A stretch of DNA of 29,027 nucleotides, taken from positions 1 to 29,027 of IMG/VR virus record IMGVR_UViG_3300049737_000122, one strand, 5' to 3'. The notes under the pieces are model-generated. The model made no database searches and was not told the DNA's origin. It saw only the letters and a program-made list of their open reading frames with translations. Positions 572 through 19,913 of this stretch are shown here, piece after piece. Position numbers and translations under genes: made by a program. This stretch comes from a virus. Positions within the stretch are counted from its first letter, which is position 1, and every line of letters begins with the position of its first letter.

Positions 572-736
572 TTATCTGTTTGCTGCCCACATATTATCCA
601 CCATATTAGGGTACTTACGACCATTAGCTTTAGCTCTTGCTTTAGCTTTAGACTTCTGTGCAGGTGTTAGCTTCTTGCTTTTACCTAATCCACTAGGTCT
701 TGGTTTGTCCCATACGGGTTTACTTTTTTTTGCCAT
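572..736 (-). CDS. Small basic protein of unknown function (54 aa)
   Basis: It begins MAKKSKPVWDKPRPSG and ends NMVDNMWAANR. The middle is a Lys/Ala/Arg-rich helix (roughly residues 19-42) with many alternating basic residues. There is no membrane segment or signal peptide. The high positive charge suggests nucleic-acid or membrane-surface binding, but I do not know a function. It starts one base after the neighbouring 88-residue basic protein ends, so the two are probably translated together. Proteins of this type, with a KP-rich head and a Trp-containing tail, are common in marine phage metagenomes as far as I recall. Confidence 0.75.
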   Translation of the reverse strand: MAKKSKPVWDKPRPSGLGKSKKLTPAQKSKAKARAKANGRKYPNMVDNMWAANR

Positions 737-737
737 G

Positions 738-1004
738 TTACCACTTTACCTTATCTGCCCAATAAGCTGCAGACATTTTGCCTTTCTTTATGTTCTTCGC
801 GTGTCGGGCTTTAAAAGACTTACGTCTTGCTTTAGACTTAGCGTCAGTTTTTTTGCCCGCCCCTGAAACGCCTTGTTGTCCGAACCTGATTAACTTAACC
901 TTACCGTTCTCTTTAGCTAGTACAGCGTGTGACTTACTAGCTTTAGGTGTACGTTTAGGTTTGTTGTAACCAGAGAACTTTTCTCCTCTGTACTCTATTG
1001 CCAT
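738..1004 (-). CDS. Small basic phage protein with RRKSFKARH motif (88 aa)
   Basis: The C-terminal half carries R-R-K-S-F-K-A-R-H (residues 61-69) and ends in A-Y-W-A-D-K-V-K-W, a pattern I remember from a widespread family of small marine-phage proteins (DUF6321-like) with the form RRKSFRARH...ARYWSCKxW. In that family the tail often contains cysteines that could bind metal; here those positions are not Cys. The N-terminal half is basic and Gly/Lys-rich. The start ATG has a good Shine-Dalgarno sequence (AAAGGAT about 6 nt upstream). Function is unknown. It lies in a cluster of four very small proteins downstream of the holin-type genes. Confidence 0.8.
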   Translation of the reverse strand: MAIEYRGEKFSGYNKPKRTPKASKSHAVLAKENGKVKLIRFGQQGVSGAGKKTDAKSKARRKSFKARHAKNIKKGKMSAAYWADKVKW

Positions 1005-1022
1005 ATTCTATCCTTTAGACTA

Positions 1023-1091
1023 TTACTTAGTCATTTTTTTCTTACGCTTGGAAGTATATCTTTTTTTCTTCCCTGTTTTGCTGTAAGGCAT
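1023..1091 (-). CDS. Tiny Lys/Arg-rich protein (22 aa)
   Basis: The frame begins MPYSKTGKKKRYTSKRK and ends KKMTK. More than half of the residues are Lys or Arg. Its ATG overlaps the stop of the upstream membrane protein as TAATG, the same junction used repeatedly in this genome, and an AGCAGG sequence a few bases upstream can act as ribosome binding site. The junction is the main argument that it is translated. It may bind nucleic acid or acidic membrane surface; nothing more can be said. Confidence 0.55.
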   Translation of the reverse strand: MPYSKTGKKKRYTSKRKKKMTK

Positions 1092-1318
1092 TACCTGCTC
1101 GCTTTCTTTTTGTTTGTTGCTTCTGGTTTATCTTTACGTAAACCTATTGTTAGTAACCATAAACCTAATGATATAAGTATAGCAATACCAACTATGTCCT
1201 TAGCTGTACCAGTAAGGGTTAGCCATGCTATAAAAAAACCAAGTAATGTAAAGGTTTGTGCTAATGTTTCTTTAAGGATCTCTCCTAACCAATTGATAAA
1301 TTTCTTAATGTATTTCAT
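1091..1318 (-). CDS. Two-segment membrane protein, holin-like candidate (75 aa)
   Basis: An amphipathic basic N-terminus (MKYIKKFINWLGEILKE) is followed by two hydrophobic segments, about residues 20-37 and 40-59, separated by a short TGTAKD turn, and a strongly basic C-terminal tail. This is the shape of a class II holin or small inner-membrane accessory protein. Its ATG overlaps the stop of the 625-residue secreted protein by four bases (ATGA). A better holin candidate lies at 3238-3519, so this could be a second holin, an antiholin, or an unrelated membrane protein. I recognise no family. Confidence 0.75.
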   Translation of the reverse strand: MKYIKKFINWLGEILKETLAQTFTLLGFFIAWLTLTGTAKDIVGIAILISLGLWLLTIGLRKDKPEATNKKKASR

Positions 1319-3192
1319 GTTCTTCTTATTCTAACTGGTACTACCGAGACACTAGCTATAATTTGCGAAGCTATGATAACTGGTACCACAACTTCTTGTG
1401 CTTTTTCTTTTTGGTCATCAGTCATATCATTACCTAAAGAAGTAAGGTCTATGTCTTGTACTTGTATATCTATAAAAGAACCTATAGGATCTGCTAAGAA
1501 TTGTTCTGTCTGTACTTCTGTAACTACATCGGCAAGTGTATAGTCTTCTACATCTTTATTTTCTACAGCTTTAGCAACGTATACTTCTACTGCTTCTGCT
1601 ACTGCTTCATCATTCTTAACTGCTTCTGCGACAATAGCAACGTCTTCTGCTTTATCTAAATTTAAAACTTCTGCAACAGTTTCTACTTGTTGTTCTGTTA
1701 ATTCTTGTACATCAGCAATAGCTTCCTCAACAACAGCTTGCACAACATCTTGTACTTCCTGCGTAGCTTGGTCAAGGTTTTGTACTCCAACATCGTTTAC
1801 TTCGTCAAGGACTTCAACAACTTCTTCTTCGGTAAGGTCTTGTACATACTCTTGTATTGCTTCTTCTTTTGCTTCTTCATATTCCTCCTCTGTTAAACTT
1901 TCAACATCTTCTTCTATAACAGGTATATTCACAATGTCTTCTATTTGTGAAATCTCCTCTTGTATTTCTTCTTCTGTAAGTTCTTTTACATCTTCTGTTT
2001 GAACTGGTACTTCAACCAACTCTTTAGGAATAGTGTCTTCCACAATCGGTGGAACGTCTTGCTCGACAATATCTTGTTCTTTATCAATCGGTATAATATC
2101 TTCATCTATTCCTTCCTCTATAATTATTACAATATCTTCTGGAATGTCAATGACTATTTCTTCAATGACAATAGTTTCTTCAATGGTATCAATAGCTTCT
2201 TGTATATCCTTTTTAATAACTTCTTCATCTGTAAGTTCTTTATCTTCATCTTGAATGACCACATCAGGTACCACAACATCATTGTCGAGAAGTTCTTTTT
2301 CGGTATCTTTTGGTTCATCTTCTACAATTATAATATCTTCTTCTACGATGTCATCATCTTTTACTTCTTCTACGGGTTTAGGAATATCACAATCCCCGCG
2401 CTCTATCTGTGCGTTAGTCATAAAACAACCGTACTCATTTTCATTATCTATACGTTCCTGATCTCTCTCTATAGTTCCATCATTAACGTCTGCTTGTGTA
2501 TAGGTCTTGTCAACACCTTCTACTTTTACATCTACAATAATTTCTTCAGGTGTAGGTGGTGGTGGAGGTGGTGGAGGAGGAGGTGGAGGAGGTACAGTTG
2601 TAGTTGTGGTAGTTGTAGTAGTAGATGTTGTAGTAGTAGATGTTGTACTAGATGTTGTAGTAACAGGTATTTCTACATACTGCCAGTAAAGTGTATCTAA
2701 TACAGATATATCAGTTAATATAACTTCAAACTTTGTAATAAATTTATCTGTGTTGGCTTCATCATTGTTGTAATCAGTAAATGATTTGTAAAAATCATCA
2801 TACATAGCATTGCCGTCTTCTCCCCAAGATTGCGCTGCATTGTTTATAGTTTCATCTGTTTCATCAGAGTAGTAATACTTTACATCATAAGTATTATTTA
2901 CTGCACCAACTAGAAATCCTACTTCATATACATCTTCTGCAAATTCAAATAGATAAGTACCACTTTGTAAAGCTAGTGAACAACCTGTAGTTCCATACCT
3001 ACCTTGTTCATTACAGTAAATATACGCAGCAGTACTACCTCCGCTTATAGTTAAACCTGTTTCGTATGTACTATCTTCAAATGCTTCATTGATAGTAACT
3101 TCATTAGGTACTTCTTCTGCAAATACAGGAATAGGAACTATAAGAAAAAGTACGATACATATCCGTACTAGACTATTAAATTTATATAACAC
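1315..3192 (-). CDS. Secreted Thr/Pro-rich acidic repeat protein (625 aa)
   Basis: Starts at a GTG, with a clear signal peptide (basic head, hydrophobic core ICIVLFLIVPIPVFA, likely cleavage after residue 25). Residues 26-175 form an N-terminal domain with a Cys pair. A Thr/Ser tract then leads to Val and 13 consecutive prolines, a rigid stalk. The rest is extremely acidic, with about five degenerate copies of the form [ED/S]-L-T-[ED]-[EQ]-[EQ]-[VIY], predicted helical. The C-terminus is hydrophobic (VVVPVIIASQIIASVSVV) ending in RIRRT, which could be a membrane anchor. Thr-tract plus VPPP linkers are typical of exported proteins in Acidimicrobiia-like Actinobacteria. It lies between two small membrane proteins, with ATGA coupling downstream. 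The GTG start has no good Shine-Dalgarno sequence, but the signal peptide immediately follows, which supports it. Function unknown: host-surface modification, superinfection exclusion or a lysis accessory role are all possible. Confidence 0.85.
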   Translation of the reverse strand: MLYKFNSLVRICIVLFLIVPIPVFAEEVPNEVTINEAFEDSTYETGLTISGGSTAAYIYCNEQGRYGTTGCSLALQSGTYLFEFAEDVYEVGFLVGAVNNTYDVKYYYSDETDETINNAAQSWGEDGNAMYDDFYKSFTDYNNDEANTDKFITKFEVILTDISVLDTLYWQYVEIPVTTTSSTTSTTTTSTTTTTTTTTVPPPPPPPPPPPPPTPEEIIVDVKVEGVDKTYTQADVNDGTIERDQERIDNENEYGCFMTNAQIERGDCDIPKPVEEVKDDDIVEEDIIIVEDEPKDTEKELLDNDVVVPDVVIQDEDKELTDEEVIKKDIQEAIDTIEETIVIEEIVIDIPEDIVIIIEEGIDEDIIPIDKEQDIVEQDVPPIVEDTIPKELVEVPVQTEDVKELTEEEIQEEISQIEDIVNIPVIEEDVESLTEEEYEEAKEEAIQEYVQDLTEEEVVEVLDEVNDVGVQNLDQATQEVQDVVQAVVEEAIADVQELTEQQVETVAEVLNLDKAEDVAIVAEAVKNDEAVAEAVEVYVAKAVENKDVEDYTLADVVTEVQTEQFLADPIGSFIDIQVQDIDLTSLGNDMTDDQKEKAQEVVVPVIIASQIIASVSVVPVRIRRT

Positions 3193-3197
3193 GGAAC

Positions 3198-3245
3198 TTA
3201 CTTAGTTCCGCAACAACCACCACCGCAACAACCGTCACTACCCAT
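3198..3245 (-). CDS. Cys/Gly microprotein MGSDGCCGGGCCGTK (15 aa)
   Basis: Fifteen codons encode two vicinal Cys pairs around three glycines. The ATG has a good Shine-Dalgarno sequence (GAGAGGA, 7 nt upstream) and overlaps the end of the holin-like gene by eight bases, while its stop ends five bases before the GTG of the 625-residue gene. The pattern suggests metal or thiol chemistry. It could also be a leader whose translation couples the holin and the secreted protein. It is too short for normal gene finders, so its reality rests on the ribosome site and the packing. Confidence 0.5.
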   Translation of the reverse strand: MGSDGCCGGGCCGTK

Positions 3246-3519
3246 GATCTATTCCTCTCCCGTTCATATCATTATGTGTTTTACTATCGAGAATACCGAA
3301 TGCCTGGTTGACTTCCTCCATTGTAAGTTGTCCATCATTAAGATATTTTCTTGCTAAGATTTCTAGTACGTTAGCTACTCCAAGTAATCCTGCTAGTAGT
3401 GCAGAACTAAATACGTCTATACCTACAAGACTACCTGCACCTATAACACTTAATGCTTGTGCTATAAAGACAGCTATCATACGTTTAGATATATTCCAAT
3501 ACAATTTGTAACCCTTCAT
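3238..3519 (-). CDS. Putative holin, r1t-like (93 aa)
   Basis: Residues 7-12 (YWNISK) and the following RMIAVFIAQALSVIGAG resemble the W-x-x-x-x-x-R-x-x-x-x-F-x-Q-A start of the phage r1t holin family as I remember it. Two hydrophobic segments follow, about residues 14-36 and 38-56. A soluble C-terminal tail carries DGQLTMEEVNQAF, a phrase I associate with small marine-phage membrane proteins. Holins form lesions in the inner membrane to time lysis. Its start overlaps the stop of the coiled-coil/membrane protein at 3516-3689 by four bases (ATGA), an arrangement like XhlA/XhlB pairs. It could instead be an accessory membrane protein. Confidence 0.65.
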   Translation of the reverse strand: MKGYKLYWNISKRMIAVFIAQALSVIGAGSLVGIDVFSSALLAGLLGVANVLEILARKYLNDGQLTMEEVNQAFGILDSKTHNDMNGRGIDHG

Positions 3520-3689
3520 TGCATAGATAAGCTACCAACGATCAATACAACCGTAGCAACTAATCCCAGTACTTTGTAAAATTCTGTTTTGTCCAATTTG
3601 TTATCTAGTTTTTCTTCTAGTTTATCAAGTCTTTCAATGACCATAGTTAATAATTCCTTTTGAGTAAAGCCGTTACCGTTAGTACTCAT
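3516..3689 (-). CDS. XhlA-like coiled-coil plus membrane-anchor protein (57 aa)
   Basis: It begins MSTNGNGFTQKELLTMVI, continues with a charged heptad-like helix (ERLDKLEEKLDNKLDKTEF, residues 19-37) and ends in a single membrane segment (about residues 39-55). This coiled coil plus C-terminal anchor is the architecture of the haemolysin XhlA family, which partners with holins in lysis modules. Length also fits. The ATGA overlap with the holin-like gene supports a functional pair. No good Shine-Dalgarno sequence is visible; it follows the previous small gene by two bases and is probably translated by coupling. Confidence 0.65.
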   Translation of the reverse strand: MSTNGNGFTQKELLTMVIERLDKLEEKLDNKLDKTEFYKVLGLVATVVLIVGSLSMQ

Positions 3690-3691
3690 GT

Positions 3692-3841
3692 TTATGGTAG
3701 GTCATCGTGGGATAGAAAATCCCATTCCTCGTCATACATACGATTATTTAAGTCATATTGACTTACTCTTTTAATAAGTTGTAGAGTTTCTTTTAAAAAA
3801 TAACCTAATAAAAATCCTATTAAATAATCCATAAAAGACAT
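3692..3841 (-). CDS. Small N-terminally anchored membrane protein (49 aa)
   Basis: The frame begins MSFMDYLIGFLLGYFLKE, one membrane segment, followed by a polar and acidic tail ending SHDDLP. The first ATG at 3841 overlaps a TATAAT hexamer at 3840-3845. The ATG three codons later (3832) lies 7 nt after that hexamer, so a leaderless transcript would start translation there and remove only MSF. This would be the first gene of the lysis-type operon, followed at a two-base distance by the XhlA-like gene. No family is recognised; possible roles are antiholin or membrane accessory protein. Confidence 0.6.
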   Translation of the reverse strand: MSFMDYLIGFLLGYFLKETLQLIKRVSQYDLNNRMYDEEWDFLSHDDLP

Positions 3842-3845
3842 TATA
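3833..3845 (-). promoter_or_regulatory. -10-like element before the lysis-type operon
   Basis: Minus-strand TATAAT at 3840-3845, then seven bases, then ATG at 3832. No convincing -35 is seen at 16-19 nt. The spacing is that expected for a leaderless mRNA. It lies in the 25-base gap between the cassette gene ending at 3867 and the small membrane-protein gene. Confidence 0.35.
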
Positions 3846-3866
3846 ACATGCTCTTAATTGAGGTAT

Positions 3867-4619
3867 CTATATTTTATGTTGTTTATAAAATTTAGGTTGT
3901 TTTTTATAACCTGTTATAAAGTTTTCATTAATTACAAAATTTGACTTTTCTAAATAATTTTCATCGTATTCTTTTTTTGTACCTTTGCGTACTTTTAATT
4001 TAATATCTTCTTTTTTAAATACGTGTACATAAACTAATGGTGTACCTGCTTCTATTGTACAATTATAATTTTCAATAGAAAAAGGGAATGCAACATAGCC
4101 CCATTTGTCTGCTTCAACTACTCCAGTAAGCATTCTTATATCATTTCTGAAGTTGTAAAATGGATCTTGATACATAACACTATAACCATCAGGGACTAAT
4201 ATTTTATATGGCATACCTAGTTTTAATATAGTTCCTTGTGGTGTCTTACCTATAGGCATATCTCCTACTTGGTGTTCAGTATGTGCGCCTAATAATTTTT
4301 CTTGATGATAAGTGTCAGAAGTAAAAGCGGCATAGGTAAAATCTTTACCATCTACTTTTTCTGTGCCTATATAAAGTTTACCCCATAAAGGTAATACAAT
4401 ACCCTCGCCAAAATAATCTTGTATTGCAGGACATTTTTTAGCTGTAATAAATTCATCTCCTGAAGGGATATTGAGATGTGAGTCTTTCCAACTTTCTCTA
4501 TAACTACCTGGTTTTAAATTTTTCCACCAATCAGGTAATATCTCTTTAGCTTTTACTGGTGGATACAACCTTAATAAATCTTCATACTCCTTACTCTTGG
4601 GTATAATCGTAATTTTCAC
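3867..4619 (-). CDS. Halogenase-cassette protein B, DUF6065-like paralogue (250 aa)
   Basis: No enzyme motif is recognised. It is a diverged paralogue of the upstream neighbour: P29-x-W31-W32-K33 and A60-K61-K62-C63-P64 align with the same features in that protein, and later both have P-x-G-Y-[SA]-x-x-Y, G-V-[VI]-E-x-D-K and I-x-x-G-x-P-[LI]-x-Y. The Pro-Trp head, the K-x-C-P motif and the late G-x-P-x-x-Y strand recall DUF6065, a family of unknown function that I expect to be a beta-rich fold; proteins like this also occur in marine T4-like phages as far as I remember. The GTG start at 4619 lies inside the upstream gene (29-base overlap), with a G-rich AAGGGGGG run upstream that may serve as ribosome site. 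Likely works with the halogenase, for example on substrate recognition, but this is inferred from position only. Confidence 0.7.
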   Translation of the reverse strand: MKITIIPKSKEYEDLLRLYPPVKAKEILPDWWKNLKPGSYRESWKDSHLNIPSGDEFITAKKCPAIQDYFGEGIVLPLWGKLYIGTEKVDGKDFTYAAFTSDTYHQEKLLGAHTEHQVGDMPIGKTPQGTILKLGMPYKILVPDGYSVMYQDPFYNFRNDIRMLTGVVEADKWGYVAFPFSIENYNCTIEAGTPLVYVHVFKKEDIKLKVRKGTKKEYDENYLEKSNFVINENFITGYKKQPKFYKQHKI

Positions 4620-5307
4620 TTTTACTGTACCCCCCTTTAAATCTACTAATAGTTACTAAATCTATTTTTTTAATAAATTTTTTTAATTTAGCGTCCATAT
4701 ATTTAAACTTGTATTTATATTTTTCTTTTTTGTAAGGAACTATGTAACAAATCGGCTCGCCTTTTTTAATTAACAATTCTTCTTTTTCAGTTGTGATTAA
4801 TATTTGTGTATTAAGTTGTGTCATTTTGTCTTGTTCTATGACACCGTAAGTTGCAAACCAATCAGTATTGAAATGTAGATTTAAAGGTATATATCTTAAT
4901 GCGTATCCTTTTGGTAACATGCAATGAAATCTAGTAGCTAATCTAAATACAGCTTTGATAGGTTTACCTGGTATATGATTTACAAATTGATCATCTTTGT
5001 GATGATTCAAACCTACGTTAGGATTAGCTGTTATTCCTTGCCATTTACCATTCATATTAAATAAATGAATGTCGCAAGGTGCTACTATAACATAAGTATT
5101 TTCGTGAAATATATTTGCAAATGAAGGACACACTTTGGTAGTTCTCCAATTAGGAACTATCTTGCTAACAAACCATGAGTGATTTTCAGGCATATCTACA
5201 GGCATATCTTTGTACCATTTTGGAACAAAATTTTTAGCAGGTTGAGGTTTAATATCTTCCATATCTAAAAACTCATCATAATCAGATGTAAACAATATAT
5301 CCACCAT
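4591..5307 (-). CDS. Halogenase-cassette protein A, DUF6065-like paralogue (238 aa)
   Basis: It has P29-K-W31-Y32-K33, then T57-K58-V59-C60-P61, and later L-P-K-G-Y-A-L-R-Y, G-V-I-E-Q-D-K and I-K-K-G-E-P-I-C-Y, all matching positions in the protein downstream. The two are therefore ancient duplicates kept side by side, suggesting a heteromer or two specificities. No catalytic motif is seen. The start has no Shine-Dalgarno sequence; a TATACT hexamer six bases before the ATG suggests a leaderless transcript beginning here. The C-terminus is Lys/Tyr-rich. DUF6065 membership is a memory-based guess from the motif layout. Confidence 0.7.
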   Translation of the reverse strand: MVDILFTSDYDEFLDMEDIKPQPAKNFVPKWYKDMPVDMPENHSWFVSKIVPNWRTTKVCPSFANIFHENTYVIVAPCDIHLFNMNGKWQGITANPNVGLNHHKDDQFVNHIPGKPIKAVFRLATRFHCMLPKGYALRYIPLNLHFNTDWFATYGVIEQDKMTQLNTQILITTEKEELLIKKGEPICYIVPYKKEKYKYKFKYMDAKLKKFIKKIDLVTISRFKGGYSKSENYDYTQE

Positions 5308-5319
5308 AATTAAAGTATA
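5308..5319 (-). promoter_or_regulatory. -10-like element for cassette protein A
   Basis: Minus-strand TATACT at 5314-5319, six bases from the ATG at 5307 and directly after the TAG stop of the preceding gene (5321-5323). No clear -35 is present. Spacing equals that of the halogenase promoter. Confidence 0.4.
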
Positions 5320-5320
5320 C

Positions 5321-5563
5321 CTATAATGCGTTCAAACAATAGAAATGTTTGACTTTTTGTTCTACAAAGTTTGTTGTACTAGGACCGCTAACTGTATCAT
5401 CTATAATAAAGGAGGAACCTGCATAAAATAATAAATCAAATGTAGAAAATCCTGCGCCACCACCACTATCTGGTAATAAATCTATATCTTCATCAATAGG
5501 TTTATTTCCTATAGTGTCTATACCTAAAGATCCACCTTCTTTTAACATTAATAATATTGACAT
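5321..5563 (-). CDS. Small Gly-rich protein of the halogenase cassette (80 aa)
   Basis: Unrecognised. The first 30 residues are acidic (DEDIDLLPD). A GGGAG stretch at about residues 34-38 leads into an aromatic-rich part (FSTFDLLFYAG) and a Thr/Ser-rich tail ending HFYCLNAL. It has no Trp, two Tyr and one Cys. The layout of an acidic front, a Gly motif and an aromatic rear superficially resembles a modified-peptide precursor, but it could equally be a small beta-rich tail or accessory protein. It starts 30 bases from the divergent halogenase and ends 13 bases before protein A. There is no Shine-Dalgarno sequence; TATAGT lies seven bases before the ATG. Confidence 0.6.
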   Translation of the reverse strand: MSILLMLKEGGSLGIDTIGNKPIDEDIDLLPDSGGGAGFSTFDLLFYAGSSFIIDDTVSGPSTTNFVEQKVKHFYCLNAL

Positions 5564-5593
5564 ATAATTAACTATAGCAGGTATAATTTTGAT
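5557..5593 (+). promoter_or_regulatory. Sigma70-type promoter of halogenase, leaderless
   Basis: Perfect TTGACA at 5557-5562 and perfect TATAAT at 5582-5587, separated by 19 bases. The expected transcription start coincides with the halogenase ATG at 5594, and no Shine-Dalgarno sequence is present. The -35 overlaps the start codon of the divergent gene. The 19-base spacer is two longer than optimal. Confidence 0.65.
5564..5576 (-). promoter_or_regulatory. -10-like element for the minus arm of the cassette
   Basis: Minus-strand TATAGT at 5571-5576, seven bases before the ATG at 5563. It overlaps the spacer of the opposing halogenase promoter, so the two divergent promoters interlock and may compete for polymerase. 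The -35 is weak. Confidence 0.4.
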
Positions 5594-6685
5594 ATGAAGA
5601 AATTAGTAGTGTTAGGCGATGGTATAGCAAGTATGCTAGCTATTAATTATTTTAAACTACATACTGATTGGGAAATAGAATGTCTCATAAAACCTGATAG
5701 TAAGCATTGGGACGTAGGTATTAGTTCTGCATTAGATACTCCCTTCCAATTAGATAACGTTAATTATTTAGACATAGAAAAATTTAATGCTAATTTAAAA
5801 CTAGGAATTATGAAAGAAAATTTTAATGGTAAAGATTATTTTCAATCGTATAAATTAAGCAACGCCAGTTTACAATTTAATTCTAAAGATTTCATTGCGT
5901 ATTTAAAATCAATTAACAATATTAAATATACAGAGACAGATGACTTCATTACTGATAGTGCAGATTTTATTATCGATGGAAGCGGCGTGCCTGTTATAGA
6001 CGATAGTTATAATATTATAAAAAATATACCAGTTAATACTGCATTAGGAATTAAAATACCACACGAATATCCACCATTTATGTACACAAAAATAAAAGCA
6101 ATGCAACATGGTTATATCTCAATGATACCAAGCAAAAGATATTTATTTGTTACACACATGTATAACTCAAATATAAATACAGAAGATGAAATACTAGAAG
6201 ATTTAGAAAAAATGTTTCCTATAAATAAACATCAAACAATACCTTTTAAAAATTATTACAAAAAGTTTCCATATAAAAATAACAAAGTATACATTGGTAA
6301 TAAAAACTTTTTTGTTGAACCTTTTGAAGGCACAAGTTTAACTGGTATTAATATAACTATTAACTCTGCTTATCATTTGTGGAACAACCCAAGAAGTTTT
6401 GAACCACAAGCATTGAGAGATTATATTGATGAAGCAATAGATACAATTCTTATGCACTATTTAGCTAATAAAAATATTGATACTGCCTTTTGGAATACAG
6501 CTAACAGTTTAGCTATAGATCATTTTACAAATAGTACATCTAATAATTTTAAAAATAGAGTATTAAATATATACGATCCAAGAGTTAAATACAGTTACTC
6601 ACATTTTTATGATCAAAAAATGTTAAAAGCTAATTTAGATTATTTAGGTGTAGGAAGTCTATTCCGTAACTTGTTCGGGAATTGA
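5594..6685 (+). CDS. Flavin-dependent halogenase-like protein (363 aa)
   Basis: Resembles the flavin-dependent (tryptophan) halogenase family, which oxidises halide with FADH2 and O2 to give a halogenating species carried to a catalytic Lys. Seen here: a dinucleotide-binding start V-V-L-G-D-G-I-A-S (residues 5-13, in place of GGGTAG), N-L-K-L-G-I (67-72), where K69 fits the catalytic Lys of T-x-K-x-G-I, D-F-I-I-D-G-S-G (124-131), and Y-I-G-N...F-F-V-E-P-F-E-G-T-S-L (233-249), the usual FAD-binding close. The WxWxIP box is changed to Y-I-S-M-I-P (174-179). At 363 residues it is much shorter than bacterial tryptophan halogenases (about 500-540). Related halogenases are known in cyanophages, for example VirX1 of Syn10. 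It is the only plus-strand gene and has its own promoter. The substrate cannot be read; the changed Trp box leaves open a related monooxygenase or an inactive form. Confidence 0.75.
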   Translation: MKKLVVLGDGIASMLAINYFKLHTDWEIECLIKPDSKHWDVGISSALDTPFQLDNVNYLDIEKFNANLKLGIMKENFNGKDYFQSYKLSNASLQFNSKDFIAYLKSINNIKYTETDDFITDSADFIIDGSGVPVIDDSYNIIKNIPVNTALGIKIPHEYPPFMYTKIKAMQHGYISMIPSKRYLFVTHMYNSNINTEDEILEDLEKMFPINKHQTIPFKNYYKKFPYKNNKVYIGNKNFFVEPFEGTSLTGINITINSAYHLWNNPRSFEPQALRDYIDEAIDTILMHYLANKNIDTAFWNTANSLAIDHFTNSTSNNFKNRVLNIYDPRVKYSYSHFYDQKMLKANLDYLGVGSLFRNLFGN

Positions 6686-6973
6686 AACTCTACCATCTTC
6701 CTCGTAGGTATTTTGCCATAAAGTTCCATCTGCAACATTAAACCAACGTGGATTACCCTCGCTATCTACTCCTGGTCCTGTATATGATTCATCATCGGGA
6801 TTATATTTATTACCCATAACTTCGACAGTAACGTTTTCAGCTGCTTCAAAATGATTATCTAAGTCACTAAATAAATTTACAGTACCATCTTCGTTAGTGT
6901 TTATTATATTGTCTTTAACTGTTTTATATCCAACAACTATGTTTGCTGTAGACAGCTCTATAAAATTTTTCAT
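6659..6973 (-). CDS. Small acidic protein at the end of the tail module (104 aa)
   Basis: Unrecognised. It is acidic and Asn/Thr-rich, with no signal or membrane segment; NPDDESYTGPG and a Trp-containing end (WFNVADGTLWQN) are visible. It is the last gene of the tail-protein run and has a Shine-Dalgarno-like AAGGG about ten bases before the ATG. Its last 27 bases overlap the 3' end of the plus-strand halogenase, so the two transcription units converge on each other. Position suggests a tail-tip or accessory virion protein; a fibre chaperone is another possibility. Confidence 0.65.
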   Translation of the reverse strand: MKNFIELSTANIVVGYKTVKDNIINTNEDGTVNLFSDLDNHFEAAENVTVEVMGNKYNPDDESYTGPGVDSEGNPRWFNVADGTLWQNTYEEDGRVSIPEQVTE

Positions 6974-6989
6974 ATCTTACTATCCCTTC

Positions 6990-7226
6990 TTACCAAAATT
7001 CTATTATCTCTCCAGTAAAATTCTGTCCTACTAATTTTGTTAATGTAGTACTGTCGCTTAAATACCAAGCAGAACCTTGACCATCATTCCCACCTTTAAA
7101 ATAGTTTAACACGATAGTTTTATCGGGATCTACTTTTTCAATAGTATATGGACTTGTTACTCTATCAAGTCTCTGTATTGATTTAATTGTTTTACCTTGA
7201 CCAGGTGTAATTACATTTCTAGCCAT
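6990..7226 (-). CDS. Tail adhesin-like paralogue 4 (78 aa)
   Basis: Carries the shared signature of this tandem family: an N-terminal I-K-S-I-Q-R, a central V-D-P-D-K-T-I-V strand, an S-T-T-L-T strand and a closing E-I-I-E-F-W. It is the shortest member, having lost much of the variable middle loop. The ATG overlaps the stop of the previous paralogue as TAATG. Small beta-rich proteins of this signature are common near tail fibres in phages, so a receptor-contacting or fibre-tip role is likely, but unproven. Confidence 0.7.
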   Translation of the reverse strand: MARNVITPGQGKTIKSIQRLDRVTSPYTIEKVDPDKTIVLNYFKGGNDGQGSAWYLSDSTTLTKLVGQNFTGEIIEFW

Positions 7227-7492
7227 TAGTTATACTCCACTACTTCTTGATAAGAGTTACCGCTATTTTGGTTACTGTATGTACCTTCACTTTTAAGAGC
7301 AATATTTGTAGTAGTAGATAGATGTGCAGAGTTATTGGCATTAAGCATACCATGTGCATGTTTAGAACTATGAAATAAAATAGTTTTATCTAAATCAACT
7401 TCTGTAATAGTTACATTAGCATTACCATTTGAACTGCCATGCGATTTATGTTGTATATTTTTTAAAACTGATACATTGTGTACTGTTCTCAT
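7226..7492 (-). CDS. Tail adhesin-like paralogue 3 (88 aa)
   Basis: The start chosen is the ATG at 7492 (MRTVHNVSVLKNIQHKS), which overlaps the previous stop as TAATG; the frame also opens at 7516, eight codons earlier, but that would overlap the upstream gene further. Signature elements are K-N-I-Q-H, T-I-T-E-V-D-L-D-K-T-I-L, S-T-T-T-N-I-A-L and closing Q-E-V-V-E-Y-N. It is His-rich in the middle (SSKHAHG), unlike its sisters. Likely a small beta-sandwich tail protein. Confidence 0.7.
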   Translation of the reverse strand: MRTVHNVSVLKNIQHKSHGSSNGNANVTITEVDLDKTILFHSSKHAHGMLNANNSAHLSTTTNIALKSEGTYSNQNSGNSYQEVVEYN

Positions 7493-7836
7493 TAATAATA
7501 CTCCACTACTTGCCATGATACATAAGGATCACGTCCATTACCGCCAGGTCCATTTGAATATCCTTGAAACATATCAACCTCTATATTAGTAGATGAAGTT
7601 AATTGTACTTCAGGTTTTGAAAAGGTACTCAAAAAATAATGTGTGCTTTGCCATGAGTGTATTCCACCTGCAGTATCCCAACTAGCATTACAATATAATA
7701 CTGCGTTGTTTAGATCAACTTCAGTAATTGTAATATTAACAATATAGCTACCTTGATTTGTACTAGGTGCAATTAATTGTTGACCTCTTTGTATTGTTTT
7801 AATTCCTGAAGCAGGTGTGCTTTCACTTCTAACCAT
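7492..7836 (-). CDS. Tail adhesin-like paralogue 2 (114 aa)
   Basis: The preferred start is the ATG at 7836 (MVRSESTPASGIKTIQRG), a TAATG overlap with the upstream stop; the frame also opens at 7866. It shows G-I-K-T-I-Q-R, T-I-T-E-V-D-L-N-N-A-V-L, S-S-T-N-I-E-V-D and W-Q-V-V-E-Y-Y. The loop between the strands (Trp/His/Ser-rich, about residues 45-65) is the most different part among the four, as expected for a binding surface. Role inferred: tail-tip or fibre-associated receptor contact. Confidence 0.72.
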   Translation of the reverse strand: MVRSESTPASGIKTIQRGQQLIAPSTNQGSYIVNITITEVDLNNAVLYCNASWDTAGGIHSWQSTHYFLSTFSKPEVQLTSSTNIEVDMFQGYSNGPGGNGRDPYVSWQVVEYY

Positions 7837-8198
7837 TATACATACTCCACTATTTGTATAGACCAACTTGCTGTTGGTTGATTGTAATTATGACTTTGTC
7901 CGTAATATACACGAACAGTTGTAGAGTTTGTTAATTGAGCTGAATTAGTACCTGCGTCAAAACGCATTTGTGTGTCATTACCACCAGTACCCCATTGGTA
8001 CCAATATCCACCAACCATATAACTTTCAACAATTAAAAATGTTTTATTTGTATCTACTGCTGATATAGTTACGTCAGTAGACCTGGTACTGTGTGAACCA
8101 CCGCCACCTGCACCTGTATCAGGAACATTAGCGCTGCCTGTAATACGTTGTATAGATTTAATTTGTTGTACGTTAAGATCCTTTTCGGAATATCTCAT
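7836..8198 (-). CDS. Tail adhesin-like paralogue 1 (120 aa)
   Basis: First member of the tandem set and the only one with its own good ribosome site (AAGGA, 7-8 nt before the ATG). Elements are Q-I-K-S-I-Q-R, a Gly/Ser-rich spacer, V-T-I-S-A-V-D-T-N-K-T-F-L, an aromatic loop (GGYWYQWGTGG), S-T-T-V-R-V and closing W-S-I-Q-I-V-E-Y-V. The other three are probably translated by coupling from this one. No enzyme motif is present. Confidence 0.75.
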   Translation of the reverse strand: MRYSEKDLNVQQIKSIQRITGSANVPDTGAGGGGSHSTRSTDVTISAVDTNKTFLIVESYMVGGYWYQWGTGGNDTQMRFDAGTNSAQLTNSTTVRVYYGQSHNYNQPTASWSIQIVEYV

Positions 8199-8213
8199 TT
8201 TGTATCCTTAAAT

Positions 8214-8549
8214 CTATACTGTTTCTTCAATTCCCCAAACATTGACAACGACACCTGTTGCGTCAGAACTTGTAACTACTATGCTTCTACCTGCGTTAAG
8301 AACAATGTTAGTTCTTTCAACAATAGATTTACTAGCTAAAGTTGCGTCATCTTCAACTGTATCTACAGCGTCAAATGAACCATCTGTTTCATCAGGAACA
8401 GCTAAATCGAATGTTTGAGAGCTAGATGAGACACTTGCAATGTTTACATTAACTACTGCTAATGTACCTGCAGGACATGTATAAACAACTTTATCTGAAC
8501 CTGTTGAGGCAGATGTAATTGCTTTCTGTCCTAGTATACCACTTGCCAT
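8214..8549 (-). CDS. Small beta-rich virion protein (111 aa)
   Basis: It begins MASGILGQKAITSASTG and then has V-V-Y-T-C-P-A-G-T-L-A-V-V-N-V-N-I, the 'vyt.paG..a.v.v.i' strand pattern seen in many small phage structural proteins placed near tail fibres. It ends in a hydrophobic V-V-V-N-V-W-G-I-E-E-T-V strand. Mostly Ser/Thr/Val/Asp, so probably all-beta. The ribosome site is GGAG, seven bases before the ATG. It is not evidently a member of the IQR family that follows it. Confidence 0.75.
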   Translation of the reverse strand: MASGILGQKAITSASTGSDKVVYTCPAGTLAVVNVNIASVSSSSQTFDLAVPDETDGSFDAVDTVEDDATLASKSIVERTNIVLNAGRSIVVTSSDATGVVVNVWGIEETV

Positions 8550-8596
8550 CTATTTCTCCAATCTTATATTATTACTATAACACATCATAATTACCA

Positions 8597-9583
8597 CTAA
8601 CCGTTTAATGCGAAGAATAGGTTACTAGAATTTAAAGATACAGAACCACCACCGCCGCCACCTAAACTTATTTCTCCTGCACCACCCATAGCTGTATGAC
8701 TTGAACAATAGTAGTACAAAGTTTTAGTAGCGCCTTCTATTCCTAAAGTTTCTGGTGTTACTTCTATTTGTGTATATGCACCTGTAGTGCCAGGTGTTCC
8801 GTTAGTAGTTACATTAGTAGTAAATTCAGAACCTGAACCATGTGTTCCATCTTTAGTAGCAGAAAATCTGAAAGGGTGATTTGTGTTAGAACTATCTGAT
8901 TGATTAAAATAATATTTAAAACCTATCTTGAATAAAAAATGCGAAGATCTTGTACCTGCACCAGTATCTGTACCTGATAAAAAGTAAAAAACATTTTGAC
9001 TACCGCTACCATCATCAGCTACCTTAACATCTATGTTTACTGTTTGTGATGCTGTACCTTGCGTCAAACTATCTATGCTTGCTTGTAATGAAGTATCTGC
9101 TGTATCAACATAAGATTTATTTGCAGCGTCTGCTGCTGCTGTAGGTGTAGTAAGGTTTGTAATTTTATTATTGTTAGCGTTTAAGTCTGCAGCTAGTTTA
9201 GGTGTACCTGCTGTACCTGAAGCATAACTCACATCTACTACTTGACCAATTGCGTCAAACATATCTTCATATACTTGTTGTACAGGGACCATACGCACTA
9301 CGGAGTTCTGTGGGTGTGATAGTCCTGAAGCTGCTGATGATCCTGTTAAATATCTATTGTCTCCAGTAGAAGTTACTAACTGTGTAGAAGTAAATGTTCC
9401 ATCGAAAAATACATACTCACGCTGTGTTGCACTATCGGGTTCAATAACTAAATAACAAGGACTTGTCAATCCTGAAGTGGAAGCTACTGTTGCTGTTGTG
9501 TCTGTAGCACCAAATGTACTAGATAGCGTAGTTTCAAACGCATTCCTTGTAAATGTTTCTGCTGCTTTTCTTGTACTTGCCAT
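8597..9583 (-). CDS. Tail fibre protein with C-terminal cupredoxin-like domain (328 aa)
   Basis: Three parts. The N-terminal part (about 1-115) has a beta-structured module (REYVFFDG...GLSHPQNSVVRMV) like those in phage tail or connector proteins. The middle contains N-N-N-K-I-T-N-L...A-A-N-K-S-Y-V-D (about 136-160), the linker motif of many phage tail fibres before a coiled or triple-stranded stalk. The C-terminal part (about 195-305) looks like a cupredoxin fold: N-H-P-F-R-F with H236 and Y-Y-Y-C-S-S-H-T-A-M-G-G with C293, H296 and M299, the His/Cys/His/Met set of type 1 copper sites. Domains of this form are frequent in marine phage structural proteins as far as I remember. A Gly run and a short hydrophobic end close it. 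The ribosome site is AGGAGA, nine bases before the ATG. Copper binding is not shown. Confidence 0.78.
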   Translation of the reverse strand: MASTRKAAETFTRNAFETTLSSTFGATDTTATVASTSGLTSPCYLVIEPDSATQREYVFFDGTFTSTQLVTSTGDNRYLTGSSAASGLSHPQNSVVRMVPVQQVYEDMFDAIGQVVDVSYASGTAGTPKLAADLNANNNKITNLTTPTAAADAANKSYVDTADTSLQASIDSLTQGTASQTVNIDVKVADDGSGSQNVFYFLSGTDTGAGTRSSHFLFKIGFKYYFNQSDSSNTNHPFRFSATKDGTHGSGSEFTTNVTTNGTPGTTGAYTQIEVTPETLGIEGATKTLYYYCSSHTAMGGAGEISLGGGGGGSVSLNSSNLFFALNG

Positions 9584-16068: not shown

Positions 16069-17309
16069 GCAAACCTACCTCCGCCTGTTGCTCGTTGACC
16101 AGGTGTACCAAACTTACTTTCCATTCTTGTCTGCAATGTATCACGATATGTTTGTGTACCTAGTTTTGCAGCTTCCTCAAACGCTATATCTTCTCTTTCC
16201 TTAACGTCATTAGTAGCCATAAATCTTTGCCATGCTGATGATGTTTCATCTGGTAACTGTCCAGTAACTGTATTCCATTGTTGTCTAAATGTACCTGAAG
16301 CAGTTGCATAATTCTTTACTGCTGTTCCTTTAAACTGTGTATATTTGTTTTGGAATGTTTCCTCTAACTGTGGAATAAAAGTTTCGTTATACCAAGTTGG
16401 ATTAGCTTCTGCTTCTTTAGCTATAGATTCTACATCATAAAATTCTGTTTGCCCAGGTCCTAAAACGTTCTCAATATATTCCGCAATATCTCTTGTCTTT
16501 AATATTACATCAAAAGATTGTCCTGTAAGTACTGCTTGTACTTCTGGATCAAGTGTATATCTTATACGTTCATTAACCATCTTGTCTAAAATATTATTTA
16601 ACTCTGTAGTGTCAGAGATTTTACCTGACTGTAACAAGTTAGTAAGACCTGATACTACGTTAGGGTTTATTGTTTGCACCCCTCTGTTAACCATACCATC
16701 AACAATTAGCTGTTGGTTTGTAACAGATTGTTCTGCATATTTAGCAGGATCTGAAGCGAATAGTTCTGCTGCTTGTCTTTGACTAGGTGGTGTAGTTCTA
16801 TACCAATTAACACGTTGTAAGTCTGCAGTACGTACCGCTTTACCTTCTAACGCATTCTCTATAGCTAATGCTAAGAAATCTAAATTACCTTCATCATCTT
16901 CTGACAATATCCATGGGCTATACTTTGCTTCTTCTTGTAATGCTTCTACTAAATGATCATAAGGTTCTGCACCTGCTTCTGCTTGTGAGAATAACAATTG
17001 GTTAGCATTGCCAAAATAAAAACTGTTGTTGTACTCTTGTCCTGTAATAGCTGATGAACCTTCTATAACATTCATACCACTATCTACTACAACGTTTGCT
17101 ACTAAGTTATTTCCTGCTACTTTTTCTTTTACTGCGTTCCAATCTGATATTTCATAACGCCATGTAAATTTACCAGATGATCCTTCAAACTCTGGTATTT
17201 GTGCAACGAGGTAGAACTTACTACCAAATTCTGTAATTTCTTCCCATATCTCAAAGTCTTTAGATATAGTGTTTATAAGTTTATTTGCTGTTTTTTCTTG
17301 TGTCGCCAT
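16065..17309 (-). CDS. Putative internal virion protein (414 aa)
   Basis: Unrecognised. A beta-rich N-terminal part (about 1-110, with W-E-E-I-T-E-F-G-S-K-F-Y-L-V) is followed by a long helical part containing T-P-P-S-Q-R-Q-A-A-E-L-F-A and many Glu/Gln/Asn. The C-terminus is Gly/Arg-rich (TPGQRATGGGRFA). It starts as TAATG on the lysozyme gene and overlaps the next by ATGA, so all are translated together. Probably a virion core or ejection protein. Confidence 0.58.
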   Translation of the reverse strand: MATQEKTANKLINTISKDFEIWEEITEFGSKFYLVAQIPEFEGSSGKFTWRYEISDWNAVKEKVAGNNLVANVVVDSGMNVIEGSSAITGQEYNNSFYFGNANQLLFSQAEAGAEPYDHLVEALQEEAKYSPWILSEDDEGNLDFLALAIENALEGKAVRTADLQRVNWYRTTPPSQRQAAELFASDPAKYAEQSVTNQQLIVDGMVNRGVQTINPNVVSGLTNLLQSGKISDTTELNNILDKMVNERIRYTLDPEVQAVLTGQSFDVILKTRDIAEYIENVLGPGQTEFYDVESIAKEAEANPTWYNETFIPQLEETFQNKYTQFKGTAVKNYATASGTFRQQWNTVTGQLPDETSSAWQRFMATNDVKEREDIAFEEAAKLGTQTYRDTLQTRMESKFGTPGQRATGGGRFA

Positions 17310-18268
17310 TATACAAACTTTCCGCTGAACGTTCTCTTTATTCTATCATACATGTCTGGCTCACTCACTTCATTATTTGCTGTTGGAATGTTGTATGTTT
17401 TTTCTAATTTATCTTTTAGTTCTTGTTTGCTTTTTTCTTTTTGCTCTAATGCTTCTTTATATCTATTGTTTGTAGTTCTAAATCTATTGTAACCGTATGG
17501 ACCTACTTGTTCTGGTGTCTGTGATTTAAACTCTTGTTCTTTATTTTCATCAACTTCTACAGTATCTACTGTATTCATAGGTGTATCTTTTTCAGGTTCT
17601 TTAACTTCTACATCATCTTCTGGTGTATCTTCAATTACTTCTTCTTCGTCTGGTTCTTCTGGTTCGTATATACCATCAAGATACTCTCTTTGCTCTGCAA
17701 GTCTTTTTATAATACCCTCTGACTGATTACCATATAACTCAACAGTTTTTGCATGTGCCTTATCAAAGTCTCCTATTAATAAGTTACCTGTGATATGTGC
17801 ATGGTTTAATCCAGTCTTGTTAAATGCTGTAATTACTAGATAATCATAAGCACTATCTTCTAATTGATCTTTTTCAAACTTACCAAATCGTTCTATAAAC
17901 TTAGGTAAAGCTATATGTCGTTCAACTCTTGCATTAACAACTCTTTGTGTTTCTGTAAGATCTGCCTCAAACAATTCATTAGCTTGTTCTTCTGTTATCT
18001 CTTGACCTACTAAATCTTTTACAGCTTGTTTAGATCCACTTAATGTACCAGTATGACCATAGCCAATAGTCAAAGTTCCTTTTATATCTGTTCCCTCTAC
18101 ATAAGGTACTGGTGGATATTGTGCCATGTCATCATATACGAAAAGCACAAGTTCTTCTTTATCCTTAATGAACTCTATTCCACCTTCTGTAATCTCTAGG
18201 TTCTTATCAACCACTACTTGCCAACCTGGACATAGCGTCAACAGTACTAAATAAGTAGCTAAGATCAT
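17309..18268 (-). CDS. Virion-associated lysozyme, GH24-type, with acidic tail (319 aa)
   Basis: The catalytic triad of T4-type lysozymes is visible: E38 (KEEL), D47 (VYDD) and T67 (TLTIGYGHTG), with the E-to-D distance of nine as in T4 lysozyme and an insertion before the Thr. It cleaves the glycan strand of peptidoglycan. The catalytic domain covers about residues 25-205. After it comes a very acidic linker (EPEEPDEEEVIED) and a charged helical tail (residues 270-300). The ATG at 18268 has a good AAAGGA site and adds a short hydrophobic start (ILATYLVLLTLC) but overlaps the upstream gene by 62 bases; a GTG at 18214 would remove it and leave an eight-base overlap. Its place among ejection proteins suggests cell-wall digestion during entry; an endolysin role is also possible because no other lysozyme is seen. 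Confidence 0.8.
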   Translation of the reverse strand: MILATYLVLLTLCPGWQVVVDKNLEITEGGIEFIKDKEELVLFVYDDMAQYPPVPYVEGTDIKGTLTIGYGHTGTLSGSKQAVKDLVGQEITEEQANELFEADLTETQRVVNARVERHIALPKFIERFGKFEKDQLEDSAYDYLVITAFNKTGLNHAHITGNLLIGDFDKAHAKTVELYGNQSEGIIKRLAEQREYLDGIYEPEEPDEEEVIEDTPEDDVEVKEPEKDTPMNTVDTVEVDENKEQEFKSQTPEQVGPYGYNRFRTTNNRYKEALEQKEKSKQELKDKLEKTYNIPTANNEVSEPDMYDRIKRTFSGKFV

Positions 18269-19913
18269 TACGTTCCTTTGTAGCTTGTTGCGTAGCTTGT
18301 ACTTCTGCGCCTAATACAGCGTCAGCATACTCACTAAGTTTAGCGTCTGGTGTCTCTGGTACAACTAAAGTCTTGTCTGCACCTGGAAACATACGTTGTG
18401 CTAGATCATAATTCTTGTTATAATCTGCAACTGCTGTTTGATAATCTCTACTAGATTGTGTATAAAAATCTGCGAATGCAACCATCTCTGCTTCTGATAA
18501 TTCTCTGTTTATACCAATAGCATTTAACGCACCATCAACTTCTGCTTTAATTTGTGTTGGACTAGGTTCAGTATATACCTGTGGTAATAACGGAGGTCTC
18601 TTGTAAAGTCTTTGTTTTTCTTCTGCTAAGTGTGTACCTATGTCAGTAAGTTCATAGTTAGAAGCAGTCATAGCTGATAACATTGCAGCTTGACTATTAC
18701 CACCCCATGTACCTTGTTCAAAGAACCAGTCATCATAACTAAGATAACCTGCTTGTAGTAAGTCTGTTTGTACTTGCACACGTTCTTGTGGCAACATGTT
18801 AAAACCTATTTGTATATGGTCTTGACCACCATATCTACTTGCTGCGTCTTCTGCACTAAGTGTTATTGTTTCTGCTGCTAAATCTCCTGGTGTTAGTTCT
18901 TTACCTTCTTCAAATACAGAAGCGAGATCAGGGTTTTTATAAACTGTGTAACCTGGTGTGATACCACCGAACAATCCACCTACTTGATAGTCTGTTTGTC
19001 CTAAAATAGCTTCTTTAGCTTGATTAACTATTGCACTATCTTGACTTTGTATAACAGTATATCCACCATCTAGTTGTTGTTCTGTAAGTGCAACTAATTC
19101 GCTCTCTGATACAGTTAATTGTTCTGTCTCTCCAGTAGCATTATTAATCTTAGTTACTAAACCACCTGCTTCTTTAACAGTTAAAGGTGTACCCTTATCA
19201 TCTCTATCTTGTACGTATGAGTTGTATTCTCCACTAAATTCATACTTACCTGGTTCTCCAGACATTATTGGTTCATACAATACTGTTGGCTCTGCTCTAA
19301 ATCCTACTTTAGGTACTTTAGTTCTACCAGGATCTGTTTCTCTAAATTGTTGTACGCTTACTGATGGTGCGTCATAATTCTTTTTGTACCTATCGTAATC
19401 TTCTGATGAAAATAGTACATAACCTTTACCTCCACCTGGTTTTACAATTGCACCTATTTGTCCTGTTGTGTCATACCATTCGTCTAATTTAACTTTAAGA
19501 AATTCAAAATATGCTTCGCTATCTTCTCCGCCTGCTTCTACCCCTGCAGACATATCAAATCCCATAAGTATATCTTGTACTACGTCTAGTGGTGTATTTA
19601 CTAACCATGGTTTATATTGTCCAGGAGAGTATCCCTGCACAGGACCTTCTAATGGTGTTGCAGCTATAGCGTCATTTAAAGAATTTTCTAATACTTTCTT
19701 TGTAACTAGATTAGTACCTAGACCAGTTTGACTTTCTTTGTTTATACTTTGGTCAAATATAGATAATGCTGTATTTACTTTAGCCATAAACATACTATCA
19801 GACACACCTTCTTTAACTAAAGCATTTAATTCTTTAGCAAACTCGGAACTATCGTCTAGTTGTCTCTGTGCTTTAATACTGTCAACAATTGCTTGTTTAT
19901 ATTCTTCTGTCAC
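18207..19913 (-). CDS. Putative internal virion / ejection protein (568 aa)
   Basis: Unrecognised. Mostly helical, acidic, Gln/Asp-rich. A beta-like central part (about 190-300) is followed by L-L-Q-A-G-Y-L-S-Y-D-D-W-F-F-E-Q-G-T-W, a phrase that recalls peptidoglycan-binding-like or virion-core repeats, then a helical end with the phrase L-S-E-A-E-M-V-A-F-A-D-F-Y. GTG start overlapping the giant gene's stop by GTGA, with a GGGAGA ribosome site. Lying between the giant protein and the lysozyme, it probably belongs to the same ejection assembly. Confidence 0.6.
   Translation of the reverse strand: MTEEYKQAIVDSIKAQRQLDDSSEFAKELNALVKEGVSDSMFMAKVNTALSIFDQSINKESQTGLGTNLVTKKVLENSLNDAIAATPLEGPVQGYSPGQYKPWLVNTPLDVVQDILMGFDMSAGVEAGGEDSEAYFEFLKVKLDEWYDTTGQIGAIVKPGGGKGYVLFSSEDYDRYKKNYDAPSVSVQQFRETDPGRTKVPKVGFRAEPTVLYEPIMSGEPGKYEFSGEYNSYVQDRDDKGTPLTVKEAGGLVTKINNATGETEQLTVSESELVALTEQQLDGGYTVIQSQDSAIVNQAKEAILGQTDYQVGGLFGGITPGYTVYKNPDLASVFEEGKELTPGDLAAETITLSAEDAASRYGGQDHIQIGFNMLPQERVQVQTDLLQAGYLSYDDWFFEQGTWGGNSQAAMLSAMTASNYELTDIGTHLAEEKQRLYKRPPLLPQVYTEPSPTQIKAEVDGALNAIGINRELSEAEMVAFADFYTQSSRDYQTAVADYNKNYDLAQRMFPGADKTLVVPETPDAKLSEYADAVLGAEVQATQQATKERNDLSYLFSTVDAMSRLASSG

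Follow-up and report, generated by a model that had tools for sequence, protein, structure and literature searches.

A halogenase-like flavoprotein gene and a pair of predicted dUTPase-fold paralogues form a recurrent unit beside phage tail-tip genes

Halogenase genes are common in marine phages. VirX1 of cyanophage Syn10, which has been called the first viral halogenase to be characterised, acts on many small molecules (PMC8407142), and the halogenases present in 20 of 153 cyanophages have been treated as auxiliary metabolic genes (PMC10452541). Two bacterial biosynthetic systems have gene-encoded targets: the flavin halogenase SrpI acts on a ribosomal peptide via a disordered region of the precursor (PMC10858898), and ChlH likewise acts on ribosomal peptides (PMC12518702). 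The locus described here lies in IMG/VR virus record IMGVR_UViG_3300049737_000122, whose positions 1 to 29,027 (29,027 nucleotides) are referred to as the window. It contains a halogenase-like gene, H, and two paralogous genes, A and B, of a family (here D, covering A, B and their relatives) which appears to have the fold of dUTPases. H and the hetero-pair A/B form a conserved gene unit which recurs in phages, known here from metagenomic contigs, making the pair a recurrent partner of phage halogenases; by contrast, the SrpI and ChlH abstracts mention no dUTPase-fold partners. Modification of a peptide by H is only putative.

H and VirX1 (PDB 6QGM) are both viral and both fall in the PF04820 superfamily; in a profile search of the PDB the H family matches VirX1 (E 2e-46) as well as PrnA and RebH. 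H itself matches PF04820 (Trp_halogenase) with an E-value of 1.6e-18 (67.2 bits; curated cut-off 21) and phrog_2928, ‘tryptophan halogenase’, with 4e-44. The original prediction, made from the letters and their translations, had called H halogenase-like and the only plus-strand gene, and both points are borne out, all other likely genes of the window being on the minus strand. VirX1 is longer, at 531 residues (PMC8407142) compared with 363, and H has YxSxIP (GYISMIP) in place of WxWxIP, a site which reads WxFxIP in most phage relatives. Alignment to solved enzymes indicates that the catalytic residues are kept, with Lys69 at the position of PrnA K79 and Glu245 at that of E346. Residues were checked across 78 distinct phage halogenase relatives, drawn from the 80 best among more than 453; frequencies accordingly hold for the window’s neighbourhood of the family; the catalytic Lys is present in 72/72 classified relatives. 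The GxGxxG site reads GDGIAS in H, the last Gly having become Ser, and Ser or Ala stands there in 5 of the 21 D-linked relatives. Some genuine halogenases, Bmp5 among them, have no WxWxIP, and a Glu to Asp change leaves low activity (review PMC8407142). As the motif is replaced in H, yet is also missing in Bmp5, H is filed as a superfamily member only: a halogenase-like flavoprotein of the Trp_halogenase superfamily, for which halogenation is putative.

Among the 78 halogenases, 21 are linked to D, 51 are unlinked and six cannot be classified. Mapped onto the halogenase tree, the D-link label changes three times, compared with 18.2 times when labels are shuffled; the linked enzymes make up the window’s clade, in which H and D are divergent, one codirectional clade (mostly D-H-D) and one single case. 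H adjoins D in 19 of the 24 lineages holding both, where random gene order predicts 4.3 (P 1.8e-11); because lineages are counted as independent, this P is too small, but the effect is large. Gaps between H and D are mostly 0 base pairs, with the genes abutting or overlapping in most lineages, while in the window and in one further contig (L005; contigs and loci carry L numbers) only the small gene S separates them. The link holds in both opposite gene arrangements and in phages with no match to the window’s capsid or portal. Two types of D, A and B, can be told apart, and 19/20 typed two-gene pairs are mixed (A+B 19, A+A 1, B+B 0), which suggests that the products form a heteromer. In two loci, L279 (9210-17036) and L280, a run of three D genes leads into a run of three halogenase-family genes.

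A and B had been called clear paralogues, and the comparison agrees: they share 25% identity (BLASTP E 2e-9), the B-type and A-type families align with an hhalign profile-profile probability of 99.8, and both match phrog_7084 over their full length (A, E 5e-44, residues 2-241; B, 3e-40, residues 5-230). phrog_7084, from haloarchaeal viruses, and DUF6065 (PF19541), from Alphaproteobacteria, represent the sequence family of both proteins. DUF6065 is matched by 51 of the 122 members of the A/B family; A itself scores 16.4 bits, under the cut-off of 26.6, and B has no match. Judged by these profiles, the A/B family is a sister family of DUF6065. Searches of known phages with tblastn returned only distant relatives for A and no match for B, and the mixed A1 alignment held no stretch conserved enough for use in scanning.

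The fold of the family is indicated by both sequence and structure comparisons. All nine weak PDB sequence matches of the family profile are dUTPases (E 0.005-0.6), including the related viral dUTPase Wsv112. An AlphaFold model of A, built on 122 relatives, has a predicted local distance difference test score (pLDDT) of 93 and a predicted template modelling (TM) score of 0.85. Every Foldseek match of this model below 1e-3 (28/28) is a dUTPase or dCTP deaminase, and the top 50 rows of VIA-align are all dUTPases (Z 9.5-10.4). The TM-scores that Foldseek gives on the query are only partial (0.24-0.32), a consequence of about 100 extra residues in A. Regions resembling dUTPase motifs 3 and 4 align. 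Unlike in dUTPases, however, the first, catalytic Asp of motif 3 (GxIDxDY) is not conserved: position 169 is E in 37%, D in 26%, N in 12% and K in 8%, with others in the remainder, and it is Glu in A. The family instead conserves Cys63 (97%), His113 (89%) and Trp31 (79%), and inspection by eye revealed no Gly-rich C-terminal motif 5 in A or B. Having a dUTPase fold but not the catalytic Asp, A and B probably represent a dUTPase-fold family with another chemistry or a binding role. A fold is thereby assigned to DUF6065/phrog_7084. No literature on DUF6065, and no description of its fold or of the H–D system, was found in the open-licence papers searched, an absence which is therefore weak. D was also considered as a relative of SapC (PF07277), by analogy with bacterial TonB-associated halogenase/SapC/cupin clusters, in which a halogenase lies beside a protein of about 240 residues and an oxygenase-type protein; these clusters serve as a lead only. 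The candidate was rejected (hhalign probability 0.3%), the SapC profile being unrelated to D, and the open-licence literature searched yielded no paper combining halogenase, SapC and TonB.

In the window’s clade the unit extends to four small KSIQR-type tail-tip proteins, K1–K4, and the protein C104 (6659-8198). These five genes accompany all seven halogenase lineages of the clade, 0/14 other D-linked and 0/51 unlinked halogenase loci, and 1-2 of 117 loci with D only. A scan of the viral collection for C104, seeded from such module contigs so that more distant relatives could be missed, returned 12 contigs, and 12/12 carry H adjoining C104, exactly four K genes and D. L283 ends with K, C104, D and S present and H not visible. 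Nearly all K proteins terminate in [IV]E[YF] followed by one or more residues. The four K genes and C104 are more tightly tied to the window’s halogenase clade than S is; like the dUTPase fold and the A+B pairing, they go beyond the original prediction.

The whole block sits between tail-shaft and lysis genes and is exchanged between phages as one unit. Three contigs (L002, L220 and L047) have portals 92% and capsids 88-89% identical to those of the window. The module of L002 is close to that of the window (H 85% identical). In L220 the 662-residue tail protein is 89% identical, identity then falling to 38% for the 111-residue protein, 33-35% for K2, K3 and C104, 29% for H and 47% for A and B, before returning to 91% for the 93-residue gene at the far side. 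L047 lacks the K/C104 part and carries a D-H-D version (H 31%) between equally conserved flanks. Conversely, L224 and L254 have a window-type module and no match to the window’s portal or capsid. Conserved flanks around a replaced interior, together with the occurrence of the module in unrelated phages, indicate that it moves as a unit with tail-tip genes.

The original prediction had grouped H, A, B and S into one functional unit and proposed that the partners supply, bind or present the halogenated substrate, a role which remains inferential. The recurrent adjacency upholds the grouping for H and the paralogues; it does not hold for S. Relatives of S number at least 161 in viral contigs and mostly have 50-85 residues, and a representative family member finds no relative among 50,697 known phage records. 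Of the 39 longer contigs bearing S, 25 have D and seven have H, always with D (7/7); 18 have D without H, 14 have neither and 32 lack H. S usually follows a tail protein, and in phages with S only the slot holds fibre-like genes. As most S contigs lack H and 14/39 lack both D and H, S is taken to be a tail-module protein rather than a dedicated halogenase partner. The description ‘Gly-rich’ is apt only for a short run in the middle of its 80 residues. Across 70 distinct sequences the first 32 residues are nearly invariant and are followed by several unrelated C-terminal classes; AlphaFold gives an uninformative model of S (pLDDT 54) in which these 32 residues are unstructured.

How these genes might act together can be proposed only tentatively. 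Best supported, though still only a possibility, is a co-inherited module of the tail tip that combines an oxidative tailoring enzyme with the dUTPase-fold hetero-pair; with assistance from an A/B heteromer, H would add halogen to an aromatic residue in one of the tail-tip proteins. In such a scheme A and B would assemble in the trimeric manner of dUTPases, having lost dUTPase chemistry, and the heteromer would be the specificity or presenting subunit of H. H would consume flavin reduced by the host, and the resulting hypohalous acid would pass along the Lys69/Glu245 site to the target, for which the K proteins are the first candidates and window-type S the second. The modification might then alter how the virion tip binds receptors or how stable it is. 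The packing and exchange of the block with tail-tip genes suggest, short of proof, that H makes a chemical change to some part of the virion, and SrpI and ChlH set a precedent for flavin halogenases with ribosomal-peptide targets. Whether this amounts to a phage system halogenating its own virion, in which repurposed dUTPase-fold proteins form a heteromer that directs a flavin halogenase to aromatic residues of tail-tip proteins, and in which enzyme, guide and substrate are exchanged as one block, is more doubtful. Linkage and fold were computed, and the step to modification of a tail-tip protein is inferred from them. Several observations count against it. The substrate of H is a candidate only, and with both Trp positions of WxWxIP lost halogenation is itself putative. 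No K or S residue is conserved so as to mark a halogenation site, except for the near-terminal aromatic residue of K. No halogenase lies near the bacterial DUF6065 relatives, and D, which is found more widely without H, must therefore do something independent of it. The transfer together with tail-tip genes may reflect hitchhiking within a block that is exchanged. For the window’s clade, the candidate substrates narrow to a closed set, namely the K proteins (four), C104 and S. Modification by H might also add a chemical layer to tail-tip evolution.

Other roles for the unit must be weighed against virion modification. The properties of VirX1 and the auxiliary metabolic status of cyanophage halogenases (PMC8407142; PMC10452541) fit a small-molecule role, in which H would halogenate a host metabolite or signalling compound held or supplied by A and B, and the tail region would merely be a variable insertion slot. 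dUTPase-like folds do bind small molecules, and the slot is variable, as the fibre-like genes of S-only phages indicate. Yet a free-standing metabolic enzyme would not be expected to be strictly coupled to the tail-tip proteins K and C104 in one clade, nor, across most of a second halogenase clade, to Gly-rich fibre genes, and no biosynthetic genes lie nearby; we regard this role as doubtful. It is unlikely that D proteins are simply virion components or tail-assembly chaperones and H a passenger in the same exchanged block with no joint function. That these tail modules often contain D but not H, that A/B pairs resemble hetero-oligomeric structural parts and that the block is exchanged as a whole would all be explained. 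H, however, abuts or overlaps D far beyond the expectation from gene order, the link persists through opposite orientations and where neither capsid nor portal of the lineage has a match, and the D D D H H H array of L279 also counts against a passenger; relatives of D beside a secreted repeat protein in bacterial genomes also speak against D as a virion part. The original prediction was to be abandoned if related phages had the halogenase alone or if the neighbours were widespread without it, and the outcome differs from gene to gene. Halogenases lacking the paralogues are frequent in other clades (51/72 classifiable), and D and S without H are frequent among S contigs; in those contigs H is always accompanied by D, whereas S does not belong to the unit in general.

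Two further readings attribute a different substrate to the enzyme. The dUTPase/dCTP deaminase fold of D, and the position of a haloarchaeal-virus relative near thymidylate synthase or ribonucleotide reductase, would suit an A/B pair that binds a pyrimidine nucleotide for halogenation by H, which could disguise phage DNA or poison host pools. 2-oxoglutarate (2OG) oxygenases, which occur near some of these genes, also serve in base modification. We consider nucleotide modification very unlikely, since D does not conserve the catalytic motif-3 Asp, the genes lie in the late tail-lysis region and no modified-base kinase, synthase or glycosyltransferase is seen in the window; in addition, known flavin halogenases prefer electron-rich rings. 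Quite unlikely, too, is that S is the precursor of a ribosomally synthesised and post-translationally modified peptide (RiPP), in which the first 32 residues would serve as leader for D and/or H, with the modified core in the variable C-terminus. The hyperconserved, unstructured N-terminus and class-variable C-terminus resemble a leader and core, but are also expected of a virion anchor peptide. In the window’s clade S has moved into or next to the A/B operon, and its C-terminus there belongs to a separate class in which Tyr and Phe are conserved. A precursor should nevertheless be linked exclusively to its modifying enzymes, which the contigs with S alone contradict. S is usually beside tail genes, its N-terminus in L283 forms part of a fusion with a Gly-rich adhesin-like domain, and L027, L224 and L254 hold the module with no detectable S.

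The open reading frames of A, B, S and H have the coordinates and strands originally proposed (Table 1), and they do lie between tail and lysis-type genes (tail/tail-tip module, 6659-9583; lysis region, 572-3689). The natural block, as delimited by identity to related contigs, runs from about 3690 to 8549 and is larger than the flagged interval 3867-6685.

Table 1. Genes of the exchanged block and its flank in the window.
Gene	Position	Strand	Description
H	5594..6685	+	Trp_halogenase-superfamily flavoprotein (putative halogenase), 363 residues; GxGxxS, Lys69 and Glu245 kept, YxSxIP replaces WxWxIP
A	3867..4619	-	phrog_7084/DUF6065-like, 250 residues; dUTPase fold (AlphaFold model); type A (CPAIQD)
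B	4591..5307	-	paralogue of A, 238 residues; type B (CPSF); 29-base overlap with A
S	5321..5563	-	80 residues; divergent from H, 30 bases separating starts
C104	6659..6973	-	104 residues; 3' end overlaps 3' end of H
K1	6990..7226	-	small tail-tip protein, KSIQR-type
K2	7226..7516	-	small tail-tip protein, KSIQR-type
K3	7492..7866	-	small tail-tip protein, KSIQR-type; start codon uncertain
K4	7836..8198	-	small tail-tip protein, KSIQR-type
111-residue protein	8214..8549	-	upstream edge of exchanged block; L220 counterpart 38% identical
93-residue holin-like protein	3238..3519	-	conserved flank at other side of block; 91% identical in L002, L220 and L047

The G+C content of the island is 28.6%, compared with 36.6% in the rest of the window, and ranks third lowest among 525 stretches of that length; the five hand counts given with the original prediction (10, 19, 19, 30 and 21) are exact on recount. 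Third-position G+C of the codons (0.15-0.21) matches that of the adjacent tail genes, so low G+C reflects amino-acid content, with no sign of recent foreign origin, and recent foreign cargo was rejected on these grounds. A promoter scan gave fewer sites than shuffled sequence and is hence uninformative on expression; no terminators were found in the region scanned, a search of the window for tRNA genes returned none, and NCBIfam profiles gave no match to A, B, S or H.

In the wider family, the commonest neighbours of phage halogenases are 2OG-Fe(II) oxygenases (PF13640 19/150, PF13759 17/150) and Gly-rich fibre proteins, so that oxidative enzymes near tail genes form a wider pattern. An oxygenase of this type lies inside or beside the D genes of L027 and L115. 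The two proteins (L027:4198-4773; L115:13253-13765) have oxygenase features (PF13640 for L027; HxD...H by eye) but match phrog_274, whose label ‘DNA endonuclease V’ looks wrong given those features.

Bacterial DUF6065 loci (L286-L365, mostly Rhizobiales) differ from phage D loci in that a secreted SSSN-repeat protein adjoins and no halogenase is nearby. The repeat gene is next to DUF6065 in 78/80 loci, mostly within a few hundred bases, and its small product has a signal-peptide-like start and a long repeat; it is possible that this protein is a peptide partner of the dUTPase-fold family. Sinorhizobium loci also have sigma/anti-sigma and S8 peptidase genes nearby. In the haloarchaeal tailed viruses HRTV-2 (L017) and HF1 (L026), a conserved D relative borders the tail-fibre module and has thymidylate synthase or ribonucleotide reductase close by.

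Elsewhere in the window, the 93-residue holin-like protein (3238-3519) matches phrog_26427, labelled ‘nuclease’; the label is doubtful because the sequence resembles a membrane protein. Beside it, positions 1315-3192 encode a 625-residue protein with a signal-like start, a linker that is Thr-rich and then a Pro run, and a long acidic repetitive tail; its relatives in L028 and L176 differ in linker length. A virion-type protein of 1,820 residues is encoded at 19910-25372, and the same gene block contains a separate protein with a T4-lysozyme-like start (17309-18268).

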